Source of the DNA: Sulfurovum sp.
Lineage (GTDB): Bacteria > Campylobacterota > Campylobacteria > Campylobacterales > Sulfurovaceae
DNA: 64,000 bases
Assembly (NCBI GenBank): GCA_027019175.1
Contig: JALUXB010000002.1
Span: 1-64,000, forward strand
Reading direction: 5' to 3'
A program made the translations under genes and the position numbers. Shown here piece after piece: positions 13,613 to 20,625 of the stretch (position 1 is the stretch's first letter; the number at the start of each line of letters is the position of its first letter). A model generated the notes under the pieces. The model searched no databases, had not been told where the DNA came from, and worked only from the letters and a program-made list of their open reading frames with translations.

Positions 13613-14092
13613 TTAGTTGCCGTCTCTTGTGAAGTCTCCTGATTTTCCGCCGCTTTTATGTTCAAGTTGCACATTTCTGATGACCATTCCTTTATCGATG
13701 GCTTTGAGCATATCGTAAATAGTCAGCAGTCCTACACTGACACCGGTGAGCGCTTCCATCTCTACGCCGGTCTTTCCGGTTAGTTTTGCGGTGACGGTCA
13801 ATTTGAAGCCCGGAAGATCAGGCAGCTCTTCAATATCGGTTTTAACCGATGTGAGCATCAGGGGATGACACATGGGAATGAGTGTGCTTGTCTGCTTGGT
13901 TCCTTGAATGGCGGCAATAACCGCAGTTTGGAGTACAGGTCCTTTTTTTGCCGTATTGGCGATGACAGCATCGAAAGCAGCCTGTCCTACTTCGATAATG
14001 CCGCTTGCTGTAGCAATGCGTGTGGTGTTCTCTTTGTCGGAGACATCGACCATTTTTGGTTTGTTCTGTTCGTCAAGATGTGTTAAGTTCAC
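13613..14092 (-). CDS. moaC: Cyclic pyranopterin monophosphate synthase
   Basis: A 159-residue MoaC, which closes the cyclic pyranopterin ring in molybdenum cofactor synthesis after MoaA. Signature segments are [14 protein letters not shown] (about 71-84) and [22 protein letters not shown] (about 111-132), carrying the conserved catalytic Asp and Lys region. It is a single gene here, with moaD, moaE and moeA 44 kb away. The product is needed by SoxC. Confidence 0.94.
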
Positions 14093-14133
14093 GGGGTATC
14101 CTCAAAAGTTTTTGTACATTTTAGCATAAAACA

Positions 14134-14224
14134 TGACGGAAATATATCCTGCATGACGTAAAAAGGCAAAATATGACGTAAAAATAAAAATATTATTGAC
14201 TTTTTACATCAAAAGGTGTACAAT
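14134..14224 (+). promoter_or_regulatory. Promoter with 20-bp-phased repeats before the recombinase-like gene
   Basis: TTGACT (14196-14201), a 17-bp spacer and TACAAT (14219-14224) form a strong sigma-70-type promoter. Upstream lie TGACGTAAAAA at 14154-14164 and again at 14174-14184, exactly 20 bp apart. A weaker copy TGACGGAAATA lies a further 20 bp upstream at 14134-14144. An inverted copy, TTTTTACATCA (14201-14211, one mismatch), lies inside the promoter spacer. The arrangement looks like an operator array on one face of the helix with one site blocking the promoter, so autorepression by the adjacent DNA-binding protein is a reasonable guess. Confidence 0.7.
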
Positions 14225-14247
14225 GACACAAATGCAAAAGGAGTACC

Positions 14248-14940
14248 ATGACATATGCATATCTTAGACAGATGTCCAACTATAACAATCTGTCCGAACA
14301 GCAGCGGATCATTCTCTCTTTTGCATTGACACAGGGATTGGAGATAGACAAAGAAGTCATCGAGTACAGTACCAAAAACCGTCCGATTGAAGAGCGTGAA
14401 GAGTTTAACGAGTTTCTGCAGTCTCTCAAGGAGAATGAAGATATAATCGTCGTTGAACATTTGGCGATTCTAAGTGACGTGGTGGAGGAAATTGTCAAGG
14501 TGATCAATTGTATGCTAAGCCGGGGTATTGTGCTTTATCGTGCCAAAACGGGCATTAAAATCACAAAAACAACCCCCTTGGTGGAGGTATTCCCCCTTCT
14601 GAATGATCTGAGGGAAGCCCAAAAAGCCAAAACCGGCCAAATCGGCCGACCCAAAGGCAGCCGCTCATCCTCAAAATTCGATGTCTATCAGGCAGAGATC
14701 ATTACCCTTCTTAAAGAAGGGAAAAGTGTCAGTGCAATAGCAAGAGAACTGAATGTCAGCAGAAGTTCGCTGAAGGACTATATTGAATCAAGAGGGATCA
14801 AGGAACTCGTTAAAGGTTCCTGGATGGAAATTGCAACACCTTCACAGGTACCGGGTATAGATAATACTGTGCTTATCTGCCCTTTTGAGCAGATGAATAA
14901 AACAGAAATAGAAAAAAAACAAACTGAAAGGATATCGTAA
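14248..14940 (+). CDS. Degenerate serine-recombinase-like DNA-binding protein, probable regulator
   Basis: A 230-residue protein with the two-part layout of resolvase/invertase: an N-terminal domain (1-110, MTYAYLRQMSN...) and, after the linker GRPKGSRSS (133-141), a helix-turn-helix (EGKSVSAIARELNVSRSSLKDYI, about 157-179). The catalytic arginines of true recombinases (DRLGRS region) are replaced by HLAILSDV (about 71-78), and the YxRVS serine motif is altered to YLRQMS. It therefore probably binds DNA but does not recombine it. Its stop abuts the ccoG start with no gap. It most likely controls ccoG and itself through the repeats upstream. The 40-residue C-terminal extension is unlike resolvases. 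Confidence 0.7.
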   Translation: MTYAYLRQMSNYNNLSEQQRIILSFALTQGLEIDKEVIEYSTKNRPIEEREEFNEFLQSLKENEDIIVVEHLAILSDVVEEIVKVINCMLSRGIVLYRAKTGIKITKTTPLVEVFPLLNDLREAQKAKTGQIGRPKGSRSSSKFDVYQAEIITLLKEGKSVSAIARELNVSRSSLKDYIESRGIKELVKGSWMEIATPSQVPGIDNTVLICPFEQMNKTEIEKKQTERIS

Positions 14941-16410
14941 ATGGAAGCAACAGCCAAAGTCGAAGAGACAAAGCCAAAGAAAAACAAAGCAAAAGAGTAT
15001 TTGAAGGGGTGGGTTCCCTACCGTATCAAGCGTTACTGGATGTATGCAGCGATAACTGTTATTGCGCTGGTATTGCCGTGGATCACAATTAACGGCAACC
15101 ATATTTTCCTGCTCAGTTTTGACCACAAAAAACTGGAATTGATGGGAGTAGCCTTTGATATGCAGGAACTCTACCTCATGCCGTTCCTGCTGATGCTCCT
15201 CTTTTTGGGAATTTTTGCCGTAACAGCAGTGGGTGGCCGAGCATGGTGCGGATGGGCATGTCCTCAAACCATTTTCCGTGTTATCTACAGAGACTTGATT
15301 GAAACAAAACTTCTGGGACTGCGCAAACGTATTAAAAACAAGCAGCAGGAACCGGATATGAGCAAGCCGGAAAACAAAGTCAAAAAAGCCATTGCTATTC
15401 TCATCTGGTCGGTATTGGCACTTATTGCTGCAGCGGATTTCATGTGGTATTTTATCCCGCCGGAAGATTTCTTCAAATACCTTCAGCATCCTGCAGATCA
15501 TATGATTATGGTCGGATTTGTTCTCGGTGTGGCACTGTTCCTGATTGCCGATGTAGTGTTTATCAAAGAGAACTTCTGTGTCTATATCTGTCCTTACAGC
15601 CGTGTGCAGTCAGTACTGTATGATGATGATACCCTCATGGCGATTTATGATCCGATCCGTGGTGGTGAAATTTATGAAGGGCATGGGAATGAGCGACATA
15701 AAGCTTTTAACAAGCAAAAGGAACTCAAATCGGTCAATCCGGAAGCAGAATGTACGACCTGTGAGAGTTGTGTGACAGTCTGTCCTACCCATATCGATAT
15801 TCGTAAAGGTTTGCAGCTTGAGTGTATCAACTGTCTGGAGTGTGTTGATGCCTGTACCCAGGTCATGGGGGCACTTGGAAAGCCAAGCCTTGTCCAGTGG
15901 TCAAGTGTGGTTGAAACAGAGAAACATGAGCGTAAAACAAAGATTTTCAGACCGAAAGTCATTGCCTACTTTACTGTATTGGCGATAGTGCTTGTATCAC
16001 TTTTTGTGATGGGAAGTGAAAAAGAGCATATGCTCTTGAATATCAACAAAACAACACGGCTTTACAAAATTCTTCCTGACGGCAATGTCGAGAACGACTA
16101 TGTGTTCCTGTTCGCCAATACTGACAGTAAGCGTCACAAGTACTATTTTGAAATTGAAGGTGACCTGAAGAACAAAATTGAGATTATTCGGCCTAAAGAG
16201 GCGTTTGGTATTGCTCCGGAGAAGAAGCATAAGAAAGTTGTTGTTCTCAGAACCAAAGACAAATTGGCAGACAACACAAGAAAAGATGTACCTATCCCTG
16301 TTACTATCAAAGCCTATGCGGTAGATGACAAAAAGAACATTGCAGTTATCCGACATACTGTCTTTGTTTATCCTCGGGCAGACCTGATAGAGAAAAAGAA
16401 GAAGCAATAG
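14941..16410 (+). CDS. ccoG: CcoG/FixG, copper-handling ferredoxin-like protein for cbb3 oxidase
   Basis: A 489-residue inner-membrane protein with about five transmembrane helices. It carries a conserved AWCGWACPQTIF motif (about 101-112), and a double 4Fe-4S ferredoxin domain with CTTCESCVTVCP and CINCLECVDAC (about 271-310). A C-terminal periplasmic Ig-like domain follows (about 370-489). CcoG is needed for copper insertion into cbb3-type cytochrome oxidase, probably reducing Cu(II). No ccoNOP genes are in the window. It is translationally coupled to the recombinase-like regulator, which makes that protein a candidate controller of oxidase assembly. Confidence 0.92.
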   Translation: MEATAKVEETKPKKNKAKEYLKGWVPYRIKRYWMYAAITVIALVLPWITINGNHIFLLSFDHKKLELMGVAFDMQELYLMPFLLMLLFLGIFAVTAVGGRAWCGWACPQTIFRVIYRDLIETKLLGLRKRIKNKQQEPDMSKPENKVKKAIAILIWSVLALIAAADFMWYFIPPEDFFKYLQHPADHMIMVGFVLGVALFLIADVVFIKENFCVYICPYSRVQSVLYDDDTLMAIYDPIRGGEIYEGHGNERHKAFNKQKELKSVNPEAECTTCESCVTVCPTHIDIRKGLQLECINCLECVDACTQVMGALGKPSLVQWSSVVETEKHERKTKIFRPKVIAYFTVLAIVLVSLFVMGSEKEHMLLNINKTTRLYKILPDGNVENDYVFLFANTDSKRHKYYFEIEGDLKNKIEIIRPKEAFGIAPEKKHKKVVVLRTKDKLADNTRKDVPIPVTIKAYAVDDKKNIAVIRHTVFVYPRADLIEKKKKQ

Positions 16411-17847: not shown

Positions 17848-18234
17848 ATGAAACAAATTACTGTATTGGAAAAATACCCTGTATTTACACTCGAAATCCA
17901 AAAAAGTGAAACATCGTATCAAACTATTGATGCAATCTTTGCCTATCTGAAAGATCAAATAGCGGAGCATCCTGTCGCAACCTATATTGGAGAGTTTGAC
18001 CACTATGCACATACCATGTCGCTGAGTGAAGGCAAGGTGGCCGAAGGAATTCTCGCGGCAAAAAATATAATTTGCTGTTTTGGGAAAGTGTTGCCTAAAC
18101 CGGAGGTTCTTGCTGTCCGGCCGCGATCTATTGGTGTTGCAGAGTATGAAGACCGTTTTGTGATCAGTTTTATGGAAGCGCCCAACCCGGATGCGAACAA
18201 AGCAATGGAGAACTGGGTAAAAGGACTGGTTTAA
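17848..18234 (+). CDS. Conserved hypothetical protein, 128 aa
   Basis: A 128-residue soluble protein, start ATG after AAAAAAGGAACCCC. It contains EHPVATYIGEFDHYAHTMSL (about 38-57) with three histidines close together, and two adjacent cysteines (NIICCFGKVLP, about 74-84), so a metal or redox role is possible but unproven. I recall similar proteins in Sulfurimonas/Sulfurovum annotated only as a DUF, and cannot name the function. It sits between the repeat block and tpx. Confidence 0.65.
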   Translation: MKQITVLEKYPVFTLEIQKSETSYQTIDAIFAYLKDQIAEHPVATYIGEFDHYAHTMSLSEGKVAEGILAAKNIICCFGKVLPKPEVLAVRPRSIGVAEYEDRFVISFMEAPNPDANKAMENWVKGLV

Positions 18235-18966: not shown

Positions 18967-19033
18967 AACTTCATTCATAATTTCCTCCTTTTTTCTTACG
19001 ACTCCCTAATTGTATTTTTGTTACAATCACTTC

Positions 19034-19609
19034 ATGTATATATCACGTTATTTTATGCCTGTTATCTTGCTCGCCGTACCATTTTTTTTCAGTGCCTGTC
19101 AGCCTGACGTCAAAAACAACCAGTATACGCTTGATGAGTGTAAAAAAGAGCTGCTTGAGGCGGAAGATTTCGATGAAAGTGCCAAAATAGACCATATTGT
19201 CGTTATTAAAAAAGAGCGCAAGATGTATCTCTATCGTGACGGCAAAGTCCAGGCAGCTTTTCCTGTCTCTTTAGGGAAGAATCCGATAGGGCAGAAACAG
19301 CAGAAAGGCGACTACCGTACACCGGAAGGAACATTCTGGATTCACAGGAAGCTTTGCTCTCCAAAATACTATCGTTCCCTCTGTATCTCCTATCCTCGTC
19401 CGCAGGATATTGCATCGGCAAAACGCCGTGGTGTAGATCCGGGCGGCAGTATTACAATTCATGCCCAGCCAACATGGAATGCAGACGGTCACGGTGACAA
19501 CTATACCTTGGCGCATAATTGGACACAGGGGTGCGTGGCTGTGACGAACAGTGCCATGAAGAAGCTCTGGTATGCGGTACGTGAAGGTGTCCCTGTGACA
19601 ATAAAATAG
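19034..19609 (+). CDS. YafK-type L,D-transpeptidase-family lipoprotein 1
   Basis: A 191-residue lipoprotein: signal MYISRYFMPVILLAVPFFFSAC with lipobox FSAC. Then a YkuD-fold catalytic domain with YRTPEG (about 95), ITIHAQP and the nucleophile motif HNWTQGCVAVTN near residue 168. The WTxGC form is that of E. coli YafK/DpaA, which cuts lipoprotein from peptidoglycan. Hydrolysis, rather than cross-linking, is therefore the better guess. The ATG at 19034 has no ribosome-binding site; a TACAAT lies at 19022-19027, so a leaderless message is possible. In-frame TTG at 19010 and ATG at 19055 are alternatives. It is paralogous to the gene at 20032. Confidence 0.8.
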   Translation: MYISRYFMPVILLAVPFFFSACQPDVKNNQYTLDECKKELLEAEDFDESAKIDHIVVIKKERKMYLYRDGKVQAAFPVSLGKNPIGQKQQKGDYRTPEGTFWIHRKLCSPKYYRSLCISYPRPQDIASAKRRGVDPGGSITIHAQPTWNADGHGDNYTLAHNWTQGCVAVTNSAMKKLWYAVREGVPVTIK

Positions 19610-20031: not shown

Positions 20032-20625
20032 ATGAGACTGAAAGTACTATTGGCCGTAATGGCTGCGGGAATGCTGTTTATTTTAGGAGGGTGCGGTAAG
20101 CCGACCTATACGGGAAAAGCAGACAAGACGCCGTATGAGACACGACAGTGTAACCGGGAATTGGCAAAAGGTGCCGAAATTGATCCGAGTATGATCATTG
20201 ACAGACTTGAAGCATTTAAGTCTAAACGTATGATGTATGGGTACCGCAACGGAAAGAAAGTATTTGAATCGCGCATGTCACTTGGAAAGAATGGTGACAA
20301 GGGAACAAAAATGAAAGCGGGTGACTACCGTACACCGGAAGGGCACTATACGATCGTACGAAAGAAGTGTGACCCCAGACTCTACCGTTCTTTGATGATC
20401 TCGTACCCGAACAAGGAAGATATGGCACGTTGCAAGGCCAAAGGATTTTGTCCTGGAGGTTACATTACGATTCATGGTCAGCCCAAGTGGAATGCAGACG
20501 GCAGAGGTGATGCCTATACACTTGCACATGACTGGACGGAGGGGTGTATGGCCGTGCCGAATAAGAAGATGCTGCAGCTTTGGAAAGGTGTACGAAACGG
20601 TACGCCGATTACAATACATCCATAA
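20032..20625 (+). CDS. YafK-type L,D-transpeptidase-family lipoprotein 2
   Basis: A 197-residue lipoprotein paralogous to the product at 19034. The signal MRLKVLLAVMAAGMLFILGGC has lipobox LGGC. The catalytic domain shows YRTPEGHYTI, YITIHGQPKWNADG and HDWTEGCMAVPN, the YafK-like WTxGC nucleophile motif. It differs from copy 1 by extra cysteines (CKAKGFCPGG, about 139-146). AAAAAAGGAGCAAG precedes its ATG. Together, 19034, 19624 and 20032 read as one operon of two peptidoglycan-acting lipoproteins with a small coiled-coil protein between. Confidence 0.82.
   Translation: MRLKVLLAVMAAGMLFILGGCGKPTYTGKADKTPYETRQCNRELAKGAEIDPSMIIDRLEAFKSKRMMYGYRNGKKVFESRMSLGKNGDKGTKMKAGDYRTPEGHYTIVRKKCDPRLYRSLMISYPNKEDMARCKAKGFCPGGYITIHGQPKWNADGRGDAYTLAHDWTEGCMAVPNKKMLQLWKGVRNGTPITIHP

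Follow-up and report, generated by a model that had tools for sequence, protein, structure and literature searches.

Why should a gene of the serine recombinase type stand directly in front of ccoG, the gene for a cupric reductase used in cbb3 oxidase assembly? The question arises in the window, by which we mean the whole 64,000-nucleotide stretch of Sulfurovum sp. DNA that was analysed. An earlier note on this DNA suggested that the recombinase, here termed reg, is dead, that it abuts ccoG without a gap and that it serves as a regulator. Several points bear on that suggestion. Is the protein still an enzyme? Do the repeats upstream belong to it? Does it repress or activate, and in response to what? 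The answer that we favour, with a probability of about 0.72, is that reg is an exapted, catalytically dead serine recombinase which regulates its own reg-ccoG operon, probably by repression and with a thiol-based redox or metal switch.

The reg-ccoG locus

The genes concerned are as follows.

13613-14092, - strand: moaC, divergent neighbour with which reg has the intergenic region in common (Pfam MoaC, 1.2e-51); synteny in the window's family and in a neighbouring family, f4
14248-14940, + strand: reg, 230 aa, a small serine recombinase assigned as catalytically dead on Pfam matches, fold match and residue counts over 128 orthologues; resolvase domain 3-127 with the invariant C88, GRPKGS arm 133-138, HTH 145-181, C-terminal tail with the invariant C211
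14941-16410, + strand: ccoG, cupric reductase for cbb3 oxidase assembly (TIGR02745, 3.5e-149)

The two genes do abut, the TAA of reg ending at 14940 and the ATG of ccoG starting at 14941, a gap of 0. This arrangement is widespread, with reg directly 5' of ccoG in 128 of the 129 distinct loci read, from at least eight families of the order. The exception, L063, has no ccoG in the stretch fetched and a search across its genome (G133) found no ccoG match; at L155 the homologue downstream of reg is only 36% identical. The contig of L063 (G133:C19) also carries a second reg-like copy, at G133:C19:8268-8762, 55% identical over 166 residues.

Of 175 genomes of the window's family 107 gave a match to reg, as a rule with one orthologue per genome, and matches extend to many other families of the order. 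By bit score they separate into distinct groups, one near 300, one near 165-200 and one far below. A sample taken across the phylum, though mostly from this same order, gave no match beyond the order. In the gene tree reg groups by host family, apart from the active recombinases, a pattern that speaks for a single origin followed by vertical descent.

Some neighbouring genes may be recorded here. Two genes 3' of ccoG, at 17848-18234, lies a gene for a small conserved protein of unknown function (DUF6858, Pfam, E 2.2e-59), preceded by one for an FAD/NAD oxidoreductase resembling sulfide:quinone reductases. The neighbouring ORFs 19010-19609 and 20032-20625 look like diverged L,D-transpeptidase-type copies and have the motif HxQPxWNADGxGDxYTLAHxWTxGCxAV in common.

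Fold and active site of the reg protein

The protein matches Pfam Resolvase (9.7e-10) and HTH_7 (6.9e-8) above the curated cut-offs. Its nearest PDB relatives by sequence profile are the Sin, gamma-delta and Tn3 resolvases, and the AlphaFold model, with pLDDT of about 90 across most of the resolvase domain, resembles the structures of the same three proteins (Foldseek probability 1.00). One weak CARF match reported by PADLOC (E 2.6e-4) was judged to be chance.

Residues were counted in a profile-based alignment of 128 distinct orthologues with gamma-delta resolvase as the reference. The column of the nucleophile, S10, never holds serine (0/128) and that of R68 never holds arginine (0/128), whilst R71 and K54 are each retained in a single orthologue (1/128). 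The resolvase-like layout, the altered serine motif and the missing catalytic arginine pair described in the earlier note thus extend well beyond the window. Since S10, R68, R71 and K54 are lost across the orthologues, the last two each being kept once, reg is almost certainly dead as an enzyme. Elsewhere it is under strong selection: Q19 and R45 are invariant, R8 is retained in 120 sequences, and there is little or no variation in the GRPKG arm, in the S.SK.D segment or in the recognition helix RSSLKDYIESR. The active-site motifs YxRVST and SRLxRS are kept in the two active chromosomal recombinases compared directly (L279 and L280), ordinary enzymes from two genomes of the window's family.

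The predicted operator and promoter

The signals between moaC and reg, as assigned from the alignments of promoters, are listed from the moaC side.

14134-14144, + strand: extra direct half-site 1, TGACGGAAATA; the outermost slot, adjoining the putative moaC -10
14154-14164, + strand: extra direct half-site 2, TGACGTAAAAA, perfect; one 20 bp step on
14174-14184, + strand: third copy of the 20-bp array and left arm of the core operator, TGACGTAAAAA, perfect
14174-14211, both strands: predicted core operator, inverted half-sites TGACGTAAAAA ... TTTTTACATCA, 38 bp between outer edges
14201-14211, - strand: right arm of the core operator, TGATGTAAAAA, within the promoter spacer
14196-14224, + strand: reg-ccoG promoter, -35 TTGACT at 14196-14201, 17 bp spacer, -10 TACAAT at 14219-14224

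Three TGACG words exactly 20 bp apart, with an inverted copy in the promoter spacer, had been noted previously. Both observations are accurate: the words start at 14134, 14154 and 14174, and between the -35 (14196) and -10 (14219) boxes the - strand carries the inverted copy at 14201-14211. The idea that such arrays should recur upstream of ccoG in related genomes holds in part. An operator is conserved, but its core is an inverted pair and not the 20-bp direct array. The pair, TGRCG-N28/29-CRYCA, is found in 115 of 128 promoters of loci with reg, always 38 or 39 bp from outer edge to outer edge, and in only 3 of 2,560 dinucleotide-shuffled controls. Its general form is the palindrome TGACGaaaa...ttttCRTCA, with TGACG or TGATG followed by an A-rich tract as the consensus for both arms. 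Thirteen of the 128 promoters miss the strict pattern, and those inspected by eye retain degenerate arms.

The relationship of this site to the promoter is close. The right arm falls between the -35 and -10 boxes in promoters of loci with reg, the -35 box stands at a constant offset (-16) from that arm in 91 of the 115 sites, and the two boxes are near-consensus and 17-18 bp apart in most genomes. A conserved TTGAC adjoins the right arm only; we therefore assign it to the promoter, as its -35 box, and not to the operator. In family f16 (L131-L134, L136 and L151-L153) several promoters have an extra half-site, TGACGatgaaa or TGACGttgaaa, just 3' of the -10 box.

In resolvase-DNA structures the HTH reads an outer word in the major groove and the GRPKG-type arm lies in the inner minor groove. 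The layout of the reg half-site, an outer word and an inner A-rich tract, is what would be expected for such a pairing. At 38-39 bp the inverted site exceeds the known sites of resolvase dimers, which in gamma-delta measure 28, 34 and 25 bp, a point that tells against our reading. A suggestive covariation links protein and site. In L139, L149 and L160 both arms carry TGGCG (TGGCG...CGCCA) and the recognition helix of this branch reads LRDY or IRDY, as opposed to LKDY elsewhere; L150 departs from the pattern, and because the branch is a single lineage the cases are not phylogenetically independent.

The direct array has a narrower distribution. It nevertheless exceeds what chance would give: of the four places in the 2.2 Mb genome with TGACG-N15-TGACG two are here, and among TGACG pairs across 89 promoters of the family 67 are spaced by exactly 20 bp, the next most frequent spacings being 40 bp, with 20 pairs, and 21 bp, with 10. 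The extra direct half-sites are found mainly in the window's family and in f4, where moaC is divergent, and are missing from most other families. The essential operator is, on these comparisons, the long palindrome around the -35 box, and the 20-bp-phased direct copies would be a lineage-specific extension. Cooperative binding on one face of the helix, two turns per step, is plausible.

The array may also reach the moaC promoter, and reg may touch moaC, because in 12 of 16 three-copy arrays with a locatable motif the outermost copy is 13 bp from TTAGCATAA or variants, the complement of a putative extended -10, TATGCTAAAAT, for moaC. In the window this putative element (the complement of ATTTTAGCATA) falls in 14115-14144, and its fixed distance of 13 bp from the outermost TGACG slot recurs in many Sulfurovum-type genomes.

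Pattern searches with TGACG-N15-TGACG and TTGACWTWNNNCRTCA met few other places in the window's own genome and gave no convincing second operator there. Two of the other TTGACWTWNNNCRTCA places recur as similar sequences in other genomes. No invertible segment was found.

Ownership of the operator and mode of action

Do these sites belong to reg, and what would binding do? Loci without reg are informative. There are 37, of which 36 have ccoG and one (L274) a weak homologue only, and neither the palindrome nor the 20-bp pair was found upstream of ccoG in any of them (0/37). Nineteen come from the window's own family and in seven of these moaC is still divergent from ccoG. That the operator is missing even where the moaC-ccoG neighbourhood is the same argues that it belongs to reg and not to another regulator of ccoG, and at the seven loci reg and operator were lost together from one place. 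The gene and its predicted operator are gained or lost together.

This pattern is the main obstacle to the view that the repeats are owned by another ccoG regulator, for example an oxygen regulator of the CRP/FNR type, with reg merely lying downstream. FNR-type proteins do control ccoG/fixG elsewhere in bacteria, and TTGAC....ATCA resembles a stretched FNR box, a relaxed form of which is met in 36 of the 128 promoters. The relaxed matches arise mainly from the TTATCATCA form of the right arm, however, and the strict box TTGAT-N4-ATCAA is absent from all 128 promoters with reg and all 37 without, so control through an FNR box was discarded. The half-site, moreover, has the anatomy of a resolvase site, with an outer G/C word and an inner A-tract. 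We consider a foreign owner of the repeats very improbable and reject it on the 0/37 count. Still harder to credit is a reg that remains an active recombinase, inverting or resolving DNA at the operator sites with a displaced nucleophile. The window protein does have a serine one residue after the S10 column, and equivalents of R8 and R45 are retained, but among the orthologues that neighbouring residue is proline in 54 of 128 and serine in only 28, on which count the shifted serine was rejected. R68 is lost in all, R71 and K54 each in all but one; the core site lacks the 26-28 bp crossover spacing and the pattern searches of the genome met no convincing second copy to act as a recombination partner.

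The sign of regulation is a finer matter. An activator could bind the upstream half-sites and recruit polymerase, or twist the -35/-10 spacer in the manner of MerR, and the left arm together with the extra 20-bp copies does lie upstream of the -35 box, in the region used by activators. Those extra copies are missing from most other families, however, whereas the conserved right arm lies within the spacer, and in most genomes a promoter with such sound -35 and -10 boxes, 17-18 bp apart, would need no untwisting. Activation is in our judgement unlikely, if clearly less so than the two preceding alternatives. The spacer between the -35 and -10 boxes is a classical repressor position. Given a near-consensus promoter whose 17-18 bp spacer holds the right arm, the simplest model is an autorepressor that keeps polymerase off. 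The regulatory reading itself, proposed in the earlier note, came through all the computational tests and is strongly supported by the lost residues, the conserved operator and the conserved reg-ccoG order; repression rather than activation we infer from the position of the arms.

A sequence of events consistent with these observations can be proposed. A serine recombinase would have been exapted as a transcription regulator before the carriers in the order diverged, losing DNA cutting whilst retaining the resolvase dimer fold, the GRPKGS minor-groove arm and the resolvase HTH. One dimer, or two, would bind at the protein's own promoter, where half-sites of resolvase type, TGACGAAAA(T/A)A, lie inverted to one another over a span of 38-39 bp. 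RNA polymerase would then be blocked, and reg and the co-transcribed ccoG repressed. Binding would probably alter with the redox or metal state of a pair of cysteines, C88 and C211, such that CcoG is made when the cbb3 oxidase needs assembly. In Sulfurovum-type genomes the further half-sites at 20-bp steps could extend the complex towards the divergent moaC promoter.

Invariant cysteines and a possible signal

The best clue to what reg senses, overlooked in the earlier note, appears to be this pair of cysteines. C88, in the helix before RGI, and C211, in a tail that AlphaFold predicts at low confidence, are present in all 128 orthologues and in 83 of the proteins they are the sole cysteines. 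A thiol-based redox or metal switch is probable, judged from conservation. In Campylobacter jejuni oxidase activity falls to about half when CcoG, the cupric reductase of cbb3 oxidase biogenesis, is lost (PMC8267372). For such a target a switch at C88 and C211 that works through thiols or copper(I) would make sense.

Instead of forming a disulfide or binding copper(I), the pair might take up heme, through the Cys-Pro motif of the tail, or an Fe-S cluster held jointly by the two subunits of a dimer. The tail cysteine is followed by proline in 100 of the 128 proteins, and the ccoG product serves a heme-copper oxidase and is itself an Fe-S protein. Against this, the proline seems dispensable, the other 28 having threonine, lysine, serine or another residue, and among the 128 orthologues there is no obvious further invariant metal ligand outside the DNA-binding part. 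We regard heme or Fe-S binding as doubtful, though it deserves more weight than activation does, and retain the thiol or copper(I) switch as the working model.

A bolder formulation, to which we would give slightly less than even odds, is that reg represents a novel class of regulator: a dead serine recombinase fixed, before the families diverged, as a thiol- or copper-sensing repressor of a cupric reductase gene, with a synaptic or extended-dimer architecture of the recombination type on the 38-39 bp operator as the switch.

Comparison with known systems

The closest annotated families are Mpi-type DNA invertases (NCBIfam NF009949, the best NCBIfam model, and PHROG 125). The match to NF009949 scores 58 bits against a cut-off of 272 bits and, unlike those enzymes, reg has no catalytic residues and no invertible segment was found in our search. 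In proteobacteria FNR, FixK and ANR control ccoGHIS (fixGHIS) in response to oxygen; the target gene is similar but the protein family is unrelated, and the strict FNR box is absent at reg promoters. Among solved structures the best sequence match is Sin on its regulatory site II (PDB 2r0q). There its half-sites are direct repeats, to which it binds in a form inactive for catalysis (PMC2428073), but Sin keeps its catalytic residues, works in plasmid resolution and has no cellular target operon, in all of which reg differs.

Our searches of the literature for regulators derived from dead resolvases, and for work that links ccoG with resolvases, found nothing relevant, and the parts consulted of a 2022 review of such exaptations discuss recruited HTH transcription factors and list no serine recombinase (PMC8987985). 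Resolvases that repress their own promoters are already known; of a dead-recombinase regulator of ccoG such as reg we found no description in the literature searched. The loss of the active site with full retention of the DNA-binding parts over an order would make this a clean case of a mobile-DNA enzyme turned cellular regulator. Automatic annotation would call the protein a recombinase, and a likely regulator of copper handling for a high-affinity oxidase is hidden by that name.

A functional precedent is TnpR of Tn3, named for repression: acting from its recombination sites, it represses both its own promoter and that of the transposase (PMC7157771). The Tn3 and gamma-delta TnpR proteins and reg are alike in fold, in the HTH and in inverted half-sites that overlap their own promoter, binding by reg being predicted. 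TnpR-type autorepressors are found on a transposon or plasmid with a transposase, whereas reg is chromosomal and usually single copy. TnpR is the active recombinase of a transposon; reg has a dead active site, a place in a vertically inherited respiratory operon, a cysteine-bearing C-terminal tail and a core site of 38-39 bp.
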